Of a stretch of 57,845 nucleotides of DNA, positions 9,894-17,615 are shown piece by piece; within the stretch, counting starts at the first letter, position 1, and every line of letters begins with the position of its first letter. The notes beneath the pieces are model-generated. The model searched no databases and was not told the origin of the DNA. It saw only the letters and a list, made by a program, of their open reading frames with translations. Source of the stretch: Sandaracinus sp. (GTDB lineage Bacteria; Myxococcota_A; Polyangia; Polyangiales; Houyiibacteriaceae); contig PABA01000005.1 in NCBI GenBank assembly GCA_002699025.1, forward strand, positions 1 to 57,845, read 5' to 3'. Both the position numbers and the translations under genes were made by a program.

Positions 9894-10643
9894 CTACAGG
9901 TCCAGACCGGCGAGCGGATCGTCGCTGATCCCCATCATGCTGCTCGCCCGCATCGTGGAGCGACGTCGGGGACGGCGCACGCGCCGGCGCGTCGTGGTGG
10001 TCTCGGCCTCCATCGACGCCGCCGCCGCCTCGGCTGCCGCCTGCGCCTCGCGGAGGGCGCGCTGACGCTCCTCCTCGGCCTGGCGCCGCGCCTCGGCCTC
10101 GCGGGCCGCCTGCTCGCGGGCCTCCCGCGCCTCGGCGGCCTGCCGGTCGGCGGCCTCCTGCGCGAGCCGGGCCTGCTCGGCCGCACGCTCCTGCTCCGGC
10201 TTGATGACGCCGAAGTACACGCCGGCCGCACCGCCGATCAGGAGCACCACCAGCCCGACGATGATGCCGGGGTGGATGCCCTTCTTCTCCTTGGCCTTGA
10301 TGGCGGCCATCTCGCGCTCGTGCTCGAGCAGGCGCTGCTGCTCGGCGGCGCGAGCCTTCGCCTCGGCCTCGAGGCGGACACGCATCTCCGCCTCTTCCTT
10401 CTCGCGCTTCTTGCGCTCTTCCTCTTCGCGCTTCTTGCGCTCCTCGGCGAGGCGAGCCTCCTCCTCGGCGCGGAGTCGGGCTTCCTCCTCCTCGCGCTTG
10501 CGGCGCTCTTCCTCTTCCTTGCGGCGACGCTCTTCTTCCTCGGCGCGGCGGCGCTCTTCTTCCTCGTCCTTGATGCGGTCCTCCTCAAGGTCCATCAGCT
10601 CCTTGAGGTTGAAGAGGACGGAGGATTCCTTCTGCTCGGACAT
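9894..10643 (-). CDS. Coiled-coil single-pass membrane protein
   Basis: A 249-residue protein of unknown function. After a short N-terminal segment (SSVLFNLKELMDLEEDRI), residues 20-120 are an uninterrupted Glu/Arg/Lys-rich heptad region, a long charged coiled coil. A single TM helix lies near residues 125-147 (HPGIIVGLVVLLIGGAAGVYFG), followed by a second Ala/Glu/Arg-rich helix and a basic tail (TTRRRVRRPRRRS). This resembles TolA-like spanning architecture with helices on both membrane sides, but no TolA or TonB C-terminal domain is seen. It is followed by a terminator and is probably monocistronic. Confidence 0.8.
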   Translation of the reverse strand: MSEQKESSVLFNLKELMDLEEDRIKDEEEERRRAEEEERRRKEEEERRKREEEEARLRAEEEARLAEERKKREEEERKKREKEEAEMRVRLEAEAKARAAEQQRLLEHEREMAAIKAKEKKGIHPGIIVGLVVLLIGGAAGVYFGVIKPEQERAAEQARLAQEAADRQAAEAREAREQAAREAEARRQAEEERQRALREAQAAAEAAAASMEAETTTTRRRVRRPRRRSTMRASSMMGISDDPLAGLDL

Positions 10644-10700: not shown

Positions 10701-10722
10701 ACCCGGCCTGTCAACGCCGGGT
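10701..10722. promoter_or_regulatory. Inverted repeat between divergent genes
   Basis: A perfect 7-bp inverted repeat (ACCCGGC, eight-base spacer, GCCGGGT) lies in the gap between the divergent coiled-coil gene and the Asp-rich lipoprotein gene. Without a T-tract and with no gene ending here it is not a terminator; an operator or mRNA leader hairpin is possible. Confidence 0.3.
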
Positions 10723-10918
10723 GGCGCGCCAGCTAGCGGGAATGCTTCGGCTTTTTGGCCGCCGATCGCGCACGCGGGCCCCCGGCGACGAGAGTTGGAC
10801 CCACGAGCGCGCCCGTCCTTGGGTGCCGTCTCGCTCGCGCCGGTGGGGCGTCCGGGGCTGCCGGACGGCTACCGGTCACCGTGGACGACCTTCACGTTCC
10901 GGTCGTACCATGGCGACC

Positions 10919-11386
10919 ATGCGAGCAGGGCTCCTGGCCGCGATTCTTCTCACCGCCTGCGGCGACACGGGCCTGAACAGGCCCGCGGGGGAGGTCTGCG
11001 CCCGCTCGCTCGAGTGCGCCGCCGGCCTCGCCTGCGTGGAGGGCGTCTGCTCCGGCGACCTGGGCCCCATCGGGGGGGAGGTGCCGGCGCTGGACGCGGG
11101 AGCGGGCGACGGGGCGGTCGAGATGGACGCGGCGATGGACGTCGACGCGGGGCCGGGCGTGGACGCGGGCCCGGGGATCGACGCGGGTCCGGGCGAGGAC
11201 GCCGGGCCCATGGAAGAGGACGCCGGGCCCATGGAAGAGGACGCCGGCCCCATGGAGATGGACGCCGGGACGGACGCGGGGCCCATGGAGATGGACGCCG
11301 GGACGGACGCGGGGCCCATGGAGATGGACGCCGGGACGGACGCGGGCCCCATGGGGACCGACGCCGGCACCGACTCGGGCATGTGA
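10919..11386 (+). CDS. Asp/Gly/Met-rich repeat lipoprotein
   Basis: The 155-residue product (ATG 10919; ATG 10910 is also in frame) starts with a lipoprotein signal ending in ILLTAC. Next comes a short Cys-containing segment (CARSLECAAGLACVEGVC) of the kind found at the base of myxobacterial surface lipoproteins. From about residue 60 to the end the chain is low-complexity acidic repeats: (V/I)DAGPG, then MEEDAGP and MEMDAGTDAGP. Such repeats normally serve as spacers before a folded domain, but here the protein stops within them. The 3' end is duplicated downstream (see repeat at 11343-11540), so this may be a shortened gene. Confidence 0.65.
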   Translation: MRAGLLAAILLTACGDTGLNRPAGEVCARSLECAAGLACVEGVCSGDLGPIGGEVPALDAGAGDGAVEMDAAMDVDAGPGVDAGPGIDAGPGEDAGPMEEDAGPMEEDAGPMEMDAGTDAGPMEMDAGTDAGPMEMDAGTDAGPMGTDAGTDSGM

Positions 11387-11540
11387 GCCTCCGCGAGCCC
11401 GTGCCACCGGGATCCCGTGCCACCGGGATCCGTGCCGCCGTCGGGCCCCATGGGGACCGACGCCGGCACCGACTCGGGCATGTGAGGGCGCGCGAGCCCG
11501 TGCCACCGGGATCCCGTGCCACCGGGATCCTGTGCTGCCG
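11343..11540. repeat. 99-bp tandem duplication spanning a gene's 3' end
   Basis: The 45 bases at 11343-11387, which encode the last codons and stop of the Asp-rich lipoprotein, recur at 11442-11486 without mismatch. The following bases, including two copies of gtgccaccgggatcc, also match after a 4-base difference. The unit is therefore a 99-bp tandem duplication of coding end plus flank; the second copy is outside any gene. Confidence 0.85.
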
Positions 11541-11604
11541 CGAGCCCGTGCCGCCGCGAGCCCGTGCCGCCGCGAGCCCGTGCCGCCGCGAGCCCGCGCC
11601 GCCG
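11541..11604. repeat. 16-bp tandem repeat, 4 copies
   Basis: Units of cgagcccgtgccgccg start at 11541, 11557, 11573 and 11589 (the last with one change). With the 99-bp duplication it fills most of the 336-bp gap between the Asp-rich lipoprotein and the MCE gene; nothing else was recognised there. Confidence 0.85.
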
Positions 11605-11722
11605 CGATCCCTTCCCGACGCGGCGAGCCCGGCGCGGACGGGTCCGCGAGCCGTGAGCCCGGTCGCGCGCGCTCTCTCCCCGAGGACGCGCCCCGGAAGC
11701 ACCGTCGTCGGGCGGCGCGCGC

Positions 11723-12736
11723 CTACTCGCGCCAGAAGAGCTTCCAGGGGTTGTGCTTCAGGTCCCGAAGCATCTCCTGGATGTCGTCGTAGATCTCTTC
11801 GTCCATCACGAACGCGCCGACCGTGCCGCGCCCTTCGCGGATGTGCGAGACGATCGCCCGCGCGTCCGCGATGGTCGCGTTCGCCTCCTCGGCGAGCGAC
11901 GAGGCCTCGTGGATGGCCGTGCGGATCTCGTCCTGCTGCTCGGGCCCGATCGCGCCGAGCGCCTCGTTGCCCTGCTCGGTGATCCCGCGCACGTCTTCGA
12001 GGATCGGGTCGATGTCGCGGGAGACCGACGCCAGCGTCCGGTCCACGTTGCGCAGCGTCCGCTGGAGCCGCTGCCCGTTGACGATCCCGTTCGCCCCGTC
12101 GAGCACCTCGTTGGTCTGCTCGGTGGCGCGCTCGAGGTTCGCCAGGATGGCGTCGAGCCGGTTGTCGTTCTCCTGCAGCAGCTCGTCCATCTGGCGGATC
12201 ATGTTCGCCGCCGAGCGGAGCAGGGTGCCGAGCTCCTCCCGGTTGTCCCGGAGGAGCTTCGAGAGGTTCTCGAGGAGGTCGTAGGCGAGGGCCAGCGCCA
12301 GATCGAGCCGGGGCGGGTCGACGCCCTGCACGATCGCCCCGTCTTCGAGGGCCGGCCGCTCCGGATCGCCCGGGTCCACGGCGATGATCGACTCACCGAG
12401 CACGCTCTGCGAGGTCACGTAGAACATCGCGTCCTCGTGGATGGTCTCGCGGACGTTCTCGTCGACGCGCAGGTGCGTGCGGATCAGCGGCCGGCGTCCG
12501 GTCTGCGGATCGAGGCGCCCGCCCCAGTACTCGACCCCCTCGACGGTGCCGATCTGGATGCTCCCGACGTTCACCGGCGCGCCGGGCTGCACGTTCCCCG
12601 GGTTGTCGAAGTCGACGTAGAGGTCGTACTGGTCCCCCAGCTCGACGCCGCCGAGGATGAAGACGAAGCCGCCGAGCAGCACCAGCGCCACGAGGACCAA
12701 GAGGCCCACGCGCACCTCGAGGGAGAGGCCCTTCAT
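11723..12736 (-). CDS. MCE/MlaD family lipid-binding protein
   Basis: A 337-residue protein with an N-terminal anchor helix (LSLEVRVGLLVLVALVLLGGFVFI) and one MCE domain (about residues 38-135: LYVDFDNPGNVQPGAPVNVGSIQIGTVEGV). A long helical region follows, with repeated Asn/Arg/Glu-rich helices typical of substrate-channel-forming MCE tails. MCE proteins form hexameric rings that shuttle phospholipids across the periplasm. It is the last gene of the transporter operon; its ATG overlaps the stop of ATPase 1 (ATGA). Only one MCE protein is encoded, although ATPases and permeases are doubled. Confidence 0.9.
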   Translation of the reverse strand: MKGLSLEVRVGLLVLVALVLLGGFVFILGGVELGDQYDLYVDFDNPGNVQPGAPVNVGSIQIGTVEGVEYWGGRLDPQTGRRPLIRTHLRVDENVRETIHEDAMFYVTSQSVLGESIIAVDPGDPERPALEDGAIVQGVDPPRLDLALALAYDLLENLSKLLRDNREELGTLLRSAANMIRQMDELLQENDNRLDAILANLERATEQTNEVLDGANGIVNGQRLQRTLRNVDRTLASVSRDIDPILEDVRGITEQGNEALGAIGPEQQDEIRTAIHEASSLAEEANATIADARAIVSHIREGRGTVGAFVMDEEIYDDIQEMLRDLKHNPWKLFWRE

Positions 12737-13479
12737 ACCTCCATCGGCCCCTCCGCGCGGCCTTGGATGAACTGCTGCACGATGGGGTCTTCGGTGTTCC
12801 GGAACTCCTCCGGCGTACCCAGAAGCCGCACCGTGCCCTTGTACAACATCGCGATCCGGTCCGCGATCGAGAAGATCGAGACCAGGTCGTGGCTCACGAC
12901 GATGCTGGTCACGCCGAACTCGTCGCAGAGGCGCCGGATCAGCTCGTCCGTGCGGCGCGCGCTGACCGGATCGAGGGAGGTCGTGGGCTCGTCAAAGAGC
13001 ACGTACTCGGGGTCCAGCGTGAGCGCCCGGGCGATCGCGACGCGCTTGCGCATGCCGTCGCCGAGGGCCGCCGGGTAGGCGTCGGCGAAGTCCTGCATGT
13101 GCACCTTCTCGAGGCGGCGGCGCGCGTCGTCGATGGCCTCCTTCATGCTCATGCCCCGGTGCTTGCGCAGCGGGAGGGCGACGTTCTCGGCGCAGGTCAT
13201 GGAGTCGAAGAGCGTCGAGCTCTGGAAGACCATCGCGCACTTCATGCGGACCGGGTAGAGGGCGCGCTCGTCGAGTCGGCTGACCTCCTCCTCGCCGAGG
13301 AAGATGTCGCCCTCGTCGGGGCGGAGCAGGCCGATGAGGTGCTTGATGAGCACGCTCTTGCCGACGCCGCTCGCGCCGATGATGAAGAAGCACTCGCCGT
13401 CCGCGACCTCGAGATCGACGCCCTGCAGCACGACCTTCGGGCCGAAGGCTTTGTGGATGTTCACGAAGCGGATGGGCAT
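12733..13479 (-). CDS. MCE transporter ATPase 1 (MlaF-like), degenerate signature
   Basis: ABC ATPase of 248 residues. Walker A GASGVGKSVL, Q-loop FQSSTLF, Walker B with catalytic Glu (VLFDEPTTSLDP) and switch His (VVSHDL) are all canonical. The signature is not: where LSGGM(R/Q) is expected it reads LGDGMRKR. In an ABC dimer the signature of one subunit completes the nucleotide site of the other, so this change would weaken the site formed with ATPase 2. It ends with QFIQGRAEGP, the C-terminal extension typical of MlaF. The gene overlaps the MCE gene by 4 bp and follows permease 1 after about 50 bp. Confidence 0.92.
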   Translation of the reverse strand: MPIRFVNIHKAFGPKVVLQGVDLEVADGECFFIIGASGVGKSVLIKHLIGLLRPDEGDIFLGEEEVSRLDERALYPVRMKCAMVFQSSTLFDSMTCAENVALPLRKHRGMSMKEAIDDARRRLEKVHMQDFADAYPAALGDGMRKRVAIARALTLDPEYVLFDEPTTSLDPVSARRTDELIRRLCDEFGVTSIVVSHDLVSIFSIADRIAMLYKGTVRLLGTPEEFRNTEDPIVQQFIQGRAEGPMEV

Positions 13480-13529
13480 CGGAGCGGAGAGGGGAGCGAG
13501 GGCGTCGGCGCGGGGTCGAAGCGCGGACG

Positions 13530-14327
13530 TCAGAGCGCGGGCACGAAGAAGTAGCCGATGGTGCTGATGACGAGGTTCAGCACGATGATGGCGAAGCAGC
13601 TCCCCACGACGGCCTCGGTCGTGGCCCAGCCGACCCCCTCCGAGCCGCCGAAGGTCGCGAGGCCGCGCTGGCCGCTGACGAGGGCGATGGCGCCGCCGTA
13701 GGTGACGGCCTTCGACACGCCGAGGACGAGGTCGCCCATGGTGACGAGCGAGAGGTTCGTGAAGGTGTGCGGGCTCACGTCGAACATGAGCTGCGCGACG
13801 AGCATGCCGCTGCCATAGGCGACGAAGCCGCCGATGATCAGGATGACCGTCCCCATGATCACCGAGGCGATGAAGCGCGGGACGACCAGGTAGTCCACCG
13901 GGTCGGCGGCGCACATGCGGAGCGCGTCGACCTGCTCGGTGACCACCATGGAGCCGATCTCGGCGGCGATGCCGGCCCCGACGCGCGTCGCGAGCGGGAG
14001 GGCGCCGACGGAGGCGGCCAGGTCGCGGATCAGGAGCTTCAGGTAGGTCGCCCCGATCATCGAGAAGTCGGGCACGAGCTTCTTCGACTGCAGGCCCGTC
14101 TGGAAGGTGATGATGGCCCCGATGAAGGCCATCGTGATGCACATGAAGAAGAGCGACTGGTTGCCGATGGCGAACATCTGGCGGGCGACCGAGCCGGGCT
14201 CGCGCTTGCCGCGGATCAGGTAGTGCATCGTGCGCCGGCCGACGCGCGCGACGGCGAGGGCGTCCTGGAGGACGTTCTTGAGGGCCGCGAGGGGGCTGAC
14301 GTTCTCGGCGCGGGCGGTGAAGGCCAT
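13530..14327 (-). CDS. MCE transporter permease 1 (MlaE family)
   Basis: Inner-membrane permease of 265 residues with five or six TM helices. Family landmarks are FIGAIITFQTGLQ in the second helix region, ATRVGAGIAAEIGSMVVTEQVDAL (split here as ATRVGAGIAAEIGSM / TEQVDAL), DPVDYLVVPR and the C-terminal GYFFVPAL. It belongs to the MlaE/YrbE superfamily that binds the MCE ring and ATPase. Its ATG overlaps the stop of permease 2 by one base (TGATG), so the two are translated in tandem. It is clearly distinct in sequence from permease 2, which suggests a heterodimer. Confidence 0.92.
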   Translation of the reverse strand: MAFTARAENVSPLAALKNVLQDALAVARVGRRTMHYLIRGKREPGSVARQMFAIGNQSLFFMCITMAFIGAIITFQTGLQSKKLVPDFSMIGATYLKLLIRDLAASVGALPLATRVGAGIAAEIGSMVVTEQVDALRMCAADPVDYLVVPRFIASVIMGTVILIIGGFVAYGSGMLVAQLMFDVSPHTFTNLSLVTMGDLVLGVSKAVTYGGAIALVSGQRGLATFGGSEGVGWATTEAVVGSCFAIIVLNLVISTIGYFFVPAL

Positions 14328-15127
14328 CAGTCGAGCACGAAGGTGGAGAAGTAGTCGGCGATGAAGACGCCGGCGGCCGAGGCGACGACCGAGGCGTTCA
14401 CGGCGCGGCCGACGCCGGGGGCGCCGCCGCGGGTGGCCAGGCCGTAGTAGCAGCTCATGAGGGCGATCATGACGCCGAAGAGGAGCGACTTGATGAGGCC
14501 GACGAAGAAGTCCCAGGTCTCGAGGCGCTCGATGGCGGAGGCCCAGAAGATGCGCGGGTCGACGTCGAGGAGGAGGTCGGCGGTCAGCATGGCGCCGCCG
14601 AGGGCGATGGCGTCGCCGAGGATGGTGAGCACGACCATCATGCTGATCATCGCGAGGACGCGCGGGACGACGAGGTAGGCGATCGGGTCGATGGCGAGGG
14701 CGCGGAGGGCGTCGACCTGATCGGTGACCTGCATGGTGCCGAGCTCGGCGGTGTTGTTGGCGCCGACGCGGCCGTTGAAGATGAGGCCGATGAGGAGCGG
14801 GCCGAGCTCGCGGAAGGTGGTGAAGGTCGCCGCCCAGCCGATGAAGCCCTTGGCGTTGAACTGCTCCACGAAGGGCGCGGCCTGGACGACCATGATGCCG
14901 CCGGTGAAGGCGGCGGTGGCCGAGATGATGGGCACGGAGCGGACGCCCATGCGGTTGAGGTTGCGGAAGAGCTCGTGGCGGTCGATGCGCGCCGGGTTGA
15001 GGCGGCGGAGGATCTGACCGAGGAGGATGGTCACGCCGCCGATCTGGGTGGCGAGCGCGAGCAGGAAGGCGCCGACCCGCTGGGGGAGGGCGAGGAGGAC
15101 GCCGACGGGGGCCGCGGGGGCGCCCAT
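14327..15127 (-). CDS. MCE transporter permease 2 (MlaE family)
   Basis: Second MlaE-family permease, 266 residues. Landmarks are FTGGIMVVQAAPFVEQF, GRVGANNTAELGTMQVTDQ, DPIAYLVVPRVLA and the end ADYFSTFVLD. In place of the usual acidic/Gly A-E-x-G pair of permease 1 (AAEIGSM) it has AELGTM, still the family motif. It is coupled by one-base overlaps to ATPase 2 upstream (15127) and permease 1 downstream (14327). The order ATPase 2-permease 2-permease 1-ATPase 1-MCE is compact and on one strand. Confidence 0.92.
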   Translation of the reverse strand: MGAPAAPVGVLLALPQRVGAFLLALATQIGGVTILLGQILRRLNPARIDRHELFRNLNRMGVRSVPIISATAAFTGGIMVVQAAPFVEQFNAKGFIGWAATFTTFRELGPLLIGLIFNGRVGANNTAELGTMQVTDQVDALRALAIDPIAYLVVPRVLAMISMMVVLTILGDAIALGGAMLTADLLLDVDPRIFWASAIERLETWDFFVGLIKSLLFGVMIALMSCYYGLATRGGAPGVGRAVNASVVASAAGVFIADYFSTFVLD

Positions 15128-15861
15128 CAGAGGGGGCCCTCCGTGAGGCCGTGGACGAACTGACGTACGGCCGGATCCGTGGAGGCCTTCGCGTCGTCGG
15201 TCGTGCCGTCGAAGATGAGGCGGCCCTCGTGGAGCATGCCGACGCGATCGGCGATGGTGAGGACGCCGGCGACGTCGCTCGAGATGACCATCACGGTCGT
15301 GTCCTGGGCGCGCTGCTCTTCCTGCACGAGGTCGTAGATCTTCTGGCTGGTGACCGGATCGAGGCCGGCCGTGGGCTCGTCGTAGAGGACGATGGGCGGT
15401 CGGGCGATGGTGGCACGGGCGACGCCGATGCGCTTCTTCTGCCCGCCGGACATGCTCTGGGGGATGCGGTGCTCGGTGCCGGGGAGGGCGACCCGCTCGA
15501 GGCGCTCGGCGACGCGCTCGGCGATCTCCTCCTCGGAGAGGTCGAAGAGGCGGCGGAGCGGGAAGGCGATGTTCTCCGCGACGTTCATGTCGAAGAGCGC
15601 GTAGTTCTGGAAGAGCATCCCGATCTTCTTGCGGACGCGGGCGAGCTCGATCTCGTTCAGCGGGCCGAGCTCCTCGTCGTCGACGAAGACCTTGCCGGAG
15701 GCGGGGCGGAGGAGGCCGGCGACGACCTTGAAGAGGACGCTCTTGCCCGCGGCGCCCGGGCCGATGAGGGCGTAGATGCACGCTGGCGGGACCTCGAGGG
15801 AGACCCCGTCGAGCACGGTGTTGTCGCCGAAGGCGAGGTGGACGTCCTCGAGGCGGATCAC
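15127..15861 (-). CDS. MCE transporter ATPase 2 (MlaF-like), switch His missing
   Basis: ABC ATPase of 244 residues from GTG 15861. Walker A GPGAAGKSVL, Q-loop FQNYALF, canonical signature MSGGQKKR and Walker B IVLYDEPTAGLDP are present. The switch (H-loop) histidine is replaced: VISSDV instead of VxSHD. This is the mirror image of ATPase 1, which keeps the histidine but has a degenerate signature. Pairing the two would give one complete and one impaired ATP site. The C-terminus FVHGLTEGPL is MlaF-like. First gene of the operon; the region upstream (to the FadR-type operator) is about 190 bp and divergent. Confidence 0.92.
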   Translation of the reverse strand: MIRLEDVHLAFGDNTVLDGVSLEVPPACIYALIGPGAAGKSVLFKVVAGLLRPASGKVFVDDEELGPLNEIELARVRKKIGMLFQNYALFDMNVAENIAFPLRRLFDLSEEEIAERVAERLERVALPGTEHRIPQSMSGGQKKRIGVARATIARPPIVLYDEPTAGLDPVTSQKIYDLVQEEQRAQDTTVMVISSDVAGVLTIADRVGMLHEGRLIFDGTTDDAKASTDPAVRQFVHGLTEGPL

Positions 15862-16051: not shown

Positions 16052-16090
16052 GACTGCTCATCTGCTGGTCTGACCAGTTGACGAGCAGTC
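16052..16090. promoter_or_regulatory. FadR-like operator dyad
   Basis: CTGGTC-T-GACCAG at 16065-16077 is a perfect 13-bp palindrome and contains TGGTC-N-GACCA, the core recognised by E. coli FadR. It is nested in a wider dyad: GACTGCTC (16052-16059) pairs with GAGCAGTC (16083-16090) about the same centre at 16071. The site is 43 bp upstream of the ATG of a FadR-family regulator, so autoregulation and control of the coupled hydroxylase is likely. The divergent MCE operon begins 190 bp to the left and could also be affected. Confidence 0.75.
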
Positions 16091-16113
16091 CAGTGGCGTG
16101 GCACCGTGCTCCC

Positions 16114-16875
16114 ATGGTCGAGCCGCCCATCCGCGCCGTCACCCGGCGCTCGCTCTCGGAGGCCGTCTTCCAGCAGCTCCGCGACGGGATCCTCTCGGGG
16201 GCCCTCGCGGCGGGCACGGCGCTGCCCTCGGAGCGCGCTCTCTGCGAGCGCTTCGGCGTGAATCGGGCGGCCCTCCGGGAGGCGCTCAAGCGGCTCCAGC
16301 AGCTCCGGCTGGTGGCGATCCGCCAAGGGGAGAGCACGCGCGTCCTCGACTTCCGGGAGACCGGTGGGCTCGAGCTGCTCGTCGGCCTCCTCCTCGACGG
16401 CGAGGGGAACGTGCAGTGGAAGGCCGTGCGGAGCTTCGTGGAGATGCGCACGGCCCTCGGGCCGGACATCGCTCGGCTCGCGGCGCTCCGGCGGGGCGAG
16501 GCGGAGCTCGCGGCCCTCGACGAGGCGCTCGCGGCCCTCGAGGCGGAGCCCGCGGACGACGTGGTCGCCCTCCAGCGCCGGAGCCTGGCGCTCTGGCGCG
16601 TGCTCGTGCGGGCGAGCGACAACCTCGCCTACCAGCTCGCCTTCAACACGATGGAGCGCGCCTGGGAGGGTGTGCAGGACACCTTCGCGCCGGCGCTCGC
16701 CGACGAGGTCACGCACCGGGCCGGCTACCGGGCGCTCGTGCGCGCGGTCCGGCGCGGGCAGCCGGAGGCGGCGCGGAAGGCGGCGGCGCGGCTGGTCGCG
16801 CGCGGGGCGAAGGCCGCGGAGGCGCTGCTCGGCGGGCTGGTCGAGCGCGGCGGAGAGACGGGGGAAGCGGGATGA
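16114..16875 (+). CDS. GntR/FadR-family transcriptional regulator
   Basis: 253-residue regulator from ATG 16114. The N-terminal winged helix-turn-helix (AVFQQLRDGILSGALAAG, LPSERALCERFGVNRAALRE) is typical of GntR proteins, and the all-helical C-terminal part resembles the FCD/FadR ligand-binding domain. A palindromic site with the E. coli FadR core lies 43 bp upstream. The stop overlaps the ATG of the fatty acid hydroxylase gene (ATGA). Together these suggest a regulator sensing an acyl-CoA or fatty acid and controlling the downstream hydroxylase. The ligand is inferred from context. Confidence 0.9.
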   Translation: MVEPPIRAVTRRSLSEAVFQQLRDGILSGALAAGTALPSERALCERFGVNRAALREALKRLQQLRLVAIRQGESTRVLDFRETGGLELLVGLLLDGEGNVQWKAVRSFVEMRTALGPDIARLAALRRGEAELAALDEALAALEAEPADDVVALQRRSLALWRVLVRASDNLAYQLAFNTMERAWEGVQDTFAPALADEVTHRAGYRALVRAVRRGQPEAARKAAARLVARGAKAAEALLGGLVERGGETGEAG

Positions 16876-17615
16876 CGCAGACGACGACGAACGCGCCGAC
16901 GGGCGCGCGACGCGAGACCCGGGGCGTGCCTCCCGAGGTGGCCGACCCGACGCCGGACCGCCCCGTCGACGGACAGCGCATCGAGACCCTCCGGGACGCG
17001 GCGCGGGTCTTCTTCAGCCGGCCGGGCCCGCGCCTCATCGCCAAGCAGGCCGCCCTCGGCTGGGCCGTCCGCGCCTGCCTCGGCCCGCCGACGATCACCG
17101 AGCTCGGCATCTGCGGCGCCGTCGTCGCCTGGTGGCCGTTCCAGGAGTGGCTCGCGCACAAGCACCTCCTCCACATCGAGCCGCGCGAGATCCTCGGTCG
17201 GCGCGTCGACCCGCTCTTCGCCCGCAAGCACCGCGCGCACCATCGCGAGCCGCGCGACGTCGACCTCACGCTCCTCCCCCCCGAGGTCATCCGCGCGGCC
17301 ATCCCCGCGAACCTCGCCTTCTGGGTCGTCGTCACGGGCGCGAGCCCCCGCAAGGCCGCGACCGGGATCGCCGCCTACTCCACCATGGCGCTCCTCTACG
17401 AGTGGACGCACTTCCTCGTCCACACGGGGGTCAAGCCGAAGAGCCGCTTCTTCAAGCGGGTCCGGCGCAACCACCGCTTCCACCACTACCGGAACGAGGA
17501 CTACTGGTACTCCTTCGTCTACCCGGACGTGGACCGCTGGCTCGGCACGGAGCCGGACCCGAAGAGCGTCCCGCGGAGCCCCACGGCGATGAAGCTCCAC
17601 GGTCTCGACGACTGA
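16872..17615 (+). CDS. Fatty acid hydroxylase/sterol desaturase superfamily protein
   Basis: 247-residue integral membrane di-iron enzyme. Histidine motifs HKHLLH, HRAHH, HFLVH and HRFHHY match the set that binds the two irons in this superfamily. Several hydrophobic segments surround them. The N-terminal 45 residues are polar and Thr/Pro-rich. The substrate cannot be read from sequence; fatty acyl chains, sterols or carotenoids are all used by relatives. Translational coupling to a FadR-type regulator favours a fatty-acid substrate. Confidence 0.85.
   Translation: MTQTTTNAPTGARRETRGVPPEVADPTPDRPVDGQRIETLRDAARVFFSRPGPRLIAKQAALGWAVRACLGPPTITELGICGAVVAWWPFQEWLAHKHLLHIEPREILGRRVDPLFARKHRAHHREPRDVDLTLLPPEVIRAAIPANLAFWVVVTGASPRKAATGIAAYSTMALLYEWTHFLVHTGVKPKSRFFKRVRRNHRFHHYRNEDYWYSFVYPDVDRWLGTEPDPKSVPRSPTAMKLHGLDD

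Follow-up and report, generated by a model that had tools for sequence, protein, structure and literature searches.

The 57,845-nucleotide stretch of Sandaracinus sp. DNA analysed here (the window, contig C16 in a genome of 9.24 Mb) carries a five-gene operon on its (-) strand, at positions 15861-11723, that is likely, with a probability of about 0.8 judged from sequence comparison, to encode one heteromeric MCE transporter with one catalytic and one degenerate ATP site. Such a machine would be an ATP-binding cassette (ABC) transporter of type VIII, akin to MlaFEDB and Mce1. The gene order is A2-P1-P2-A1-MCE, where A1 and A2 are MlaF-type ATPases, P1 and P2 are MlaE-type permeases and MCE is the single MCE protein, a gene content that a first-pass annotation had proposed and that the Pfam searches bear out. 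Each ABC site is formed by the Walker motifs and the switch His of one subunit and by the signature motif of the other, as set out in parts of PMC7756269 and PMC7367683. Because a complementary pairing of defects in the two ATPases recurs in relatives, it is very probable that one of the pump's two ATP sites works and the other is dead. The five genes are as follows.

15127..15861, (-): A2, MlaF-type ATPase (ATPase 2 of the first-pass annotation), own catalytic site defective, signature intact; Pfam ABC_tran and translation, nearest to MlaF/MceG in sequence and fold
14327..15127, (-): P1, MlaE-type permease; Pfam MlaE, 3.1e-70
13530..14327, (-): P2, MlaE-type permease; Pfam MlaE, 8.2e-52
12733..13479, (-): A1, MlaF-type ATPase (ATPase 1 of the first-pass annotation), signature degenerate, catalytic core intact; Pfam ABC_tran and translation, fold nearest to MceG/MlaF
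11723..12736, (-): MCE (MlaD-domain) protein whose N-terminal segment is hydrophobic and whose C-terminal part is long; Pfam MlaD, 6.2e-10, and translation

The genes nearly abut: A2 and P1, as well as P1 and P2, have start and stop bases in common, A1 starts about 50 bases past the P2 stop, and the MCE gene overlaps the stop of A1. P1 and P2 match the MlaE permease family PF02405 with 236.5 and 176.3 bits (cut-off 22.5), the MCE/MlaD domain PF02470 is recognised with 39.6 bits (E 6.2e-10, cut-off 25.1), and both ATPases belong to ABC_tran PF00005 (E ~1e-28 each). All three components by which an MCE/Mla-type (type VIII) ABC transporter is recognised, namely an MlaE permease, an MCE protein and an MlaF/MceG-type ATPase, are present. 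Pfam identifies no STAS (MlaB) gene among the operon's five genes, to which the search for STAS was confined. A1 and A2 are 40% identical, and P1 and P2 37% identical over 208 aligned columns.

Complementary motif states in the two ATPases

The translations give the motifs GASGVGKS / LGDGM / FDEP / SHD for A1 and GPGAAGKS / MSGGQ / YDEP / SSD for A2, with the Walker A Lys and the Q-loop Gln retained in both. The first-pass annotation had described a degenerate LGDGM signature beside canonical Walker A/B motifs and switch His in A1, and an SGGQ signature beside SSD in A2, and the translations agree with it. Its account of A2 was correct for the signature and the switch Ser and overlooked the Ala at position 4 of Walker A. 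The motifs lie at the following positions.

15739..15762, (-): A2 Walker A GPGAAGKS, Ala for Gly at position 4 (translation; Ala in 76/122 A2)
15439..15453, (-): A2 signature MSGGQ, SGG intact (SGG in 121/122 A2)
15376..15381, (-): A2 Walker B Asp-Glu, catalytic Glu retained in this clade (translation)
15277..15279, (-): A2 switch position, Ser for His, SSD (translation)
13354..13377, (-): A1 Walker A GASGVGKS, canonical (translation)
13051..13065, (-): A1 signature LGDGM, degenerate, canonical form LSGGM/Q (SGG in 0/122 A1)
12988..12993, (-): A1 Walker B Asp-Glu, canonical (122/122 A1)
12889..12891, (-): A1 switch His, canonical (122/122 A1)

The search for P2 homologues covered the order (183 genomes) and the phylum (377 genomes), and the fetched stretches comprise 117 homologous regions together with three paralogous MlaE regions of the same Sandaracinus genome (120). 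The main motif counts cover Myxococcota homologues with identical proteins merged; proteins covering fewer than 225 model positions and loci picked by a scan for the GDG pattern are left out. A1, A2 and other ATPases were separated by the difference of their hidden Markov model scores, with profiles that include the motif columns and cut-offs set after viewing the data. All five genes occur in 60/117 homologous regions, and 57 of these 60 are collinear in the order A2-P1-P2-A1-MCE on one strand.

Conservation of both defects in relatives was the test that the first-pass annotation had set for its own proposal, and the defects are indeed conserved together. At the 76 loci that carry both ATPases, the A1 signature is degenerate in 75/75 readable cases, while the A2 signature is SGG in 75/76 and AGG in one, and the Glu and/or the His of A2 itself is altered in 76/76. 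The Asp-Glu/SHD core is intact in 96/97 A1 rows, the remaining row being cut off. In the merged set, none of 122 A1 proteins has SGG, the signatures being GDG (105), SDG (8), GPG (4), GPS (3), GAG (1) and SSG (1); all 122 combine Asp-Glu with SHD, and all 122 keep the fourth Gly of Walker A. Among 122 A2 proteins, SGG is found in 121 and an intact pair of Glu and His in a single one. Their catalytic states are DE/SSD (76), DD/SHD (30), DD/SHE (6), DD/SSD (3) and DD/GHD (2), with one case each of DD/THD, DD/TQD, DE/STD, GD/SSD and DE/SHD. The A2 site is spoiled in two ways, either His to Ser with the Glu kept or Glu to Asp with the His kept, and the Walker A Ala is tied to the Glu/Ser form (73/76). 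The Glu to Asp exchange is well known from degenerate sites of heterodimeric exporters. The most degenerate A2, at locus L357 (G312:C108:13488-14192), has a CGDP Walker B, with Gly for Asp and Asp for Glu, and an SSD switch.

The A1 core and the A2 signature are essentially invariant, and the opposite site varies, nearly always among defective states: the A2 core appears in several catalytic forms and the A1 signature in seven (the six counted above and PAG). Because the conserved and the spoiled residues sort by composite site, with the A1 core and the A2 signature kept and the reverse combination degraded, we infer that the two proteins share a site. Three features of a degenerate-site transporter are present at the sequence level: a deviating signature in A1, a deviating Glu or His in A2 (121/122), and a remaining composite site that would be canonical. 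The earlier proposal that a heterodimer would hold one complete site (A1 core plus A2 signature) and one impaired site gains support from the complementary conservation, which falls short of proof.

General looseness of MlaF motifs in Myxococcota is ruled out by the other MlaF-like/ABC ATPases of the same loci, all 25 of which carry SGG, Glu and His (the L128 member resembles a different ABC family). The co-variation is not an artefact of the GDG scan, since the motif-selected loci (at least 112) were omitted from the counts. Among these at least 112 loci listed by the scan of genome contigs, 94 are from Myxococcota, 10 from Deltaproteobacteria without a phylum, 3 from Pseudomonadota metagenome-assembled genomes (MAGs) and 5 from unplaced sources (NCBI names); the viral scan gave no match.

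The single-chain AlphaFold models have a mean predicted local distance difference test score (pLDDT) of 95.7 for A2 and 94.6 for A1, and the best PDB matches of both, by sequence and by fold, are MlaF/MceG chains. Both proteins are modelled as intact MlaF-like ATPases and are therefore not decaying genes; sequencing error and pseudogene decay are ruled out, A1 and A2 being intact, conserved across the phylum and complete in the models.

Altogether, these findings lead to a model in which a P1-P2 permease pair would lie in the inner membrane, with the ATPases A1 and A2 attached below as a heterodimer and the MCE protein forming a ring on top. Site I, formed by Walker A, Walker B and the His of A1 together with the SGGQ signature of A2, would be complete, hydrolyse ATP and drive each cycle. 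Site II, formed by the A2 Walker A/B with its Ser or Asp and by the GDG of A1, would be degenerate; it most likely binds ATP without a useful rate of hydrolysis and may remain shut for the whole cycle and act as a lasting clamp, in the way proposed for TM287/288 (PMC7756269). The substrate is presumed from the family to be a lipid.

Co-occurrence, exceptions and ancestry

The 377 Myxococcota genomes were screened with A1 and A2 profiles at self-chosen cut-offs of 1e-95 and 1e-86, at which A1 is found in 151, A2 in 144 and both in 132 (phi 0.83). As 226/377 genomes lack A1 at the cut-off, the module is not universal. A relaxed search combined with motif reading gains an A2 match in ten A1-only genomes, which brings the pairing to 142/151. 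The gained A2 motifs are degenerate in G235, G333, G384, G278 and G359 (DD/SHD), in G386 (DD/SSD) and in G312 (Gly-Asp/SSD). In G239, A2 was assigned purely by its position on a contig shared with P2 and A1, and in G112 and G296 it is a partial gene, the G296 piece reading DD. Eight further A2-only matches (G190 and seven of family f40) were judged to be canonical MlaF, from their motifs in G190, G277 and G456 and from family alone for five of f40. Two genomes of family f52 (G298 and G378) contain P2 with neither ATPase at the cut-off; both of their A2 proteins read DD/THD, and the A1 found in G298 has a PAG signature with Glu and His intact.

Genomes with a dispersed operon retain the two degenerate partners, so that a pairing limited to the local operon is ruled out; canonical MlaF-type ATPases are encoded elsewhere in the same genomes. 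At seven loci from part of the order (L065, L066, L068, L069, L083, L085 and L092), the A1 call is opposite in strand to the adjoining P2 and MCE genes and A2 is encoded at another place in the genome, yet the complementary defects are kept in both ATPases.

In a tree of 130 ATPases with the motif columns removed, A1 forms one clade (Shimodaira-Hasegawa-like approximate likelihood ratio test, SH-aLRT, 100) that lies with canonical MlaFs. A2 forms a separate group, scored as two changes because the long-branched L128 protein, of another ABC kind, falls next to an A2 at the midpoint root, which has weak support. Since A1 groups with canonical MlaFs and A2 stands apart, the two do not look like the products of a recent tandem duplication. 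Doubly defective A2 proteins (DD/SSD, GD/SSD) occur in the divergent family f17 and, outside the tree subsample, at L058/L059; they would fit a switch that passed through a doubly dead intermediate, without being strong evidence for it. An independent-pairs comparison of Glu versus His on the tree yields one usable pair.

Several observations weigh against a single asymmetric transporter, or limit what can be claimed for it. A2 was not found in nine A1-positive genomes (G071, G110, G133, G271, G320, G335, G339, G341 and G485), nor A1 in four genomes with a true A2 (G018, G064, G249 and G357). Most of the unpaired genomes are fragmented MAGs, but G485 (95% complete), G018 (93%) and G064 (98%) are not easily excused. 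The two routes by which A2 is spoiled are essentially one deep switch (DD/His versus Glu/Ser) and not many independent events, because the tree, across its 58 A2 rows, has a single change between Glu and Asp and three changes in the His state. In addition, one A2 (L150/L192, genome G395) has both Glu and His, with a GRDP D-loop. Its partner A1 reads GDG and lies beside an MCE gene on another short contig, in an assembly listed at 7% contamination, and this A2 is treated as a genuine unexplained exception.

L150 4310-5113; L374 1921-2724: exception, A2 with Arg in the D-loop (GRD), its partner A1 (GDG) being on another contig

Other arrangements and known systems

A last contrary point, that sites with Asp in place of the catalytic Glu can still hydrolyse ATP slowly in some transporters (part of PMC7756269), leads to the alternative that survives best, albeit as an unlikely one: an A1-A2 heterodimer in which both sites hydrolyse ATP, with GDG, Ser for His and Asp for Glu tolerated without functional asymmetry. 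The Walker A Lys and Q-loop Gln kept in both ATPases would suit such a scheme. However, variation is one-sided, falling on one composite site and almost not at all on the other, and the MlaF paralogues of the same phylum are canonical (25/25).

Less probable still are two separate homodimeric transporters, in which A1-A1 would serve one permease and A2-A2 the other, perhaps with a common MCE protein. Homodimers are the rule in the closest solved relatives, MlaF and MceG, and A1 and A2 do lie at separate loci in some genomes. Yet neither homodimer would have a normal site, because A1 lacks SGG and A2 lacks Glu or His, which in nearly every species leaves two faulty sites in either assembly; moreover, the residues conserved in each protein belong to one common composite site, the operon has a single MCE gene, and both ATPases are retained even when their genes are separated. 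A regulatory or partner-swapping role for A2 (or A1), in which it would pair with the canonical MlaF paralogues encoded elsewhere in these genomes, is very improbable, although MceG serves several Mce permease sets in mycobacteria (part of PMC10517005), since A2 with a canonical MlaF would likewise have one good and one poor site, and this would leave unexplained both the constant loss of SGG in A1 and the place of its gene between the permeases of A2 and the MCE gene.

The single heteromeric transporter can be set beside known members of its class. It shares an MlaE permease, an MlaF-type ATPase and an MlaD/MCE protein with the MlaFEDB systems of E. coli, Acinetobacter and Pseudomonas. MlaF is a homodimer with an LSGGM signature, Glu170 and two equivalent sites (part of PMC7367683), as the first-pass annotation had stated for E. 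coli, whereas two ATPases with complementary defects and two permeases are encoded here. A single homodimeric ATPase with two equal sites, which is true of the solved members covered here and is no requirement of the class, is not matched by the two ATPase genes with their unequal motifs. The C-terminal tail of E. coli MlaF makes a homodimer 'handshake' (part of PMC7367683); in the alignments, A1 and A2 reach no further than about residue 252 of the 269 in MlaF, and both proteins therefore lack most of this tail. The median distance from the SHD motif to the stop is 53 residues in A1, 51 in A2 and 60 in other MlaF-like open reading frames (ORFs). The mycobacterial Mce1 system is alike in being an MCE transporter with two different permeases, but its YrbE1A/YrbE1B heterodimer stands on an MceG homodimer, and six different MCE proteins take the place of the one found here (parts of PMC9882608 and, for MceG, PMC10517005).

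Asymmetric sites are established for heteromeric exporters such as TAP, as the first-pass annotation had stated. In TM287/288, TAP1/2 (ABCB2/B3), MRP1 (ABCC1) and ABCG5/G8, the signature is lost in one nucleotide-binding domain and the Walker B Glu, the H-loop or Walker A in the other, much as in A1 and A2. According to section 7 of the same review (PMC7756269), the signature is changed in all human degenerate sites, Glu to Asp comes next, and H-loop changes often accompany them, a pattern that the changes in A1 and A2 match. The exporters differ from the present operon in transporter class, the latter having separate MlaE-type permeases and an MCE protein, and the degenerate-site pattern would here have arisen independently of them. 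No MCE system that has two ATPases or contains a degenerate site was found in the open-access literature, as covered by titles, abstract openings and part of a 2017 MCE survey (PMC5561183), subscription papers and bioRxiv lying outside this scope.

A wider claim can be made with less assurance, although we favour it: that a large part of the phylum has an MCE lipid transporter driven by an ATPase heterodimer in which one site is catalytic and the other permanently dead, which would be the first such case in the MCE/type VIII class and would have evolved independently of exporters. The dead site would be kept dead by selection, with lineages switching between Glu to Asp and His to Ser forms and doubly defective ones also present, while the live site stays unchanged.

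Neighbouring genes and implications for MCE systems

Downstream of the MCE gene, at 9894-10643 (-), the window encodes a single-pass membrane protein, rich in long, charged coiled-coil regions, which matches no Pfam family. In 41/121 stretches (window included), a protein of this kind is encoded after the MCE gene and in the same orientation, at a gap of 86 to 1551 bases, and usually precedes pyrF and an rRNA methylase. Although composition accounts for part of the similarity, the position and the transmembrane segment recur, and a role as a transporter accessory is possible. Between this gene and the operon, an ORF at 10721-11386 (+), downstream of and opposite to the MCE gene, contains a lipoprotein-like stretch and, after it, repeated Asp-Ala-Gly-Pro units, and short GC-rich repeats (cgggatcccggtggca / cgggctcgcggcggca) lie directly downstream of the MCE gene at ~11400-11640. 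On the other side, a GntR/FadR-type regulator and a fatty-acid hydroxylase (16078-16875 and 16926-17615, both +) are divergent to the operon. Only one other stretch (L053) of the 120 fetched has a similar pair, which therefore says little about the substrate.

The purpose of the dead ATP site found in many ABC transporters is an open question that has been discussed mainly for exporters (part of PMC7756269). An MCE lipid transporter with a dead site, belonging to another class and spoiled by two routes, would provide an independent test of this purpose, with the prediction that only the catalytic Glu of A1 should matter. The arrangement further suggests that the motor of MCE systems can be asymmetric, which may bear on the unsettled direction of their transport.

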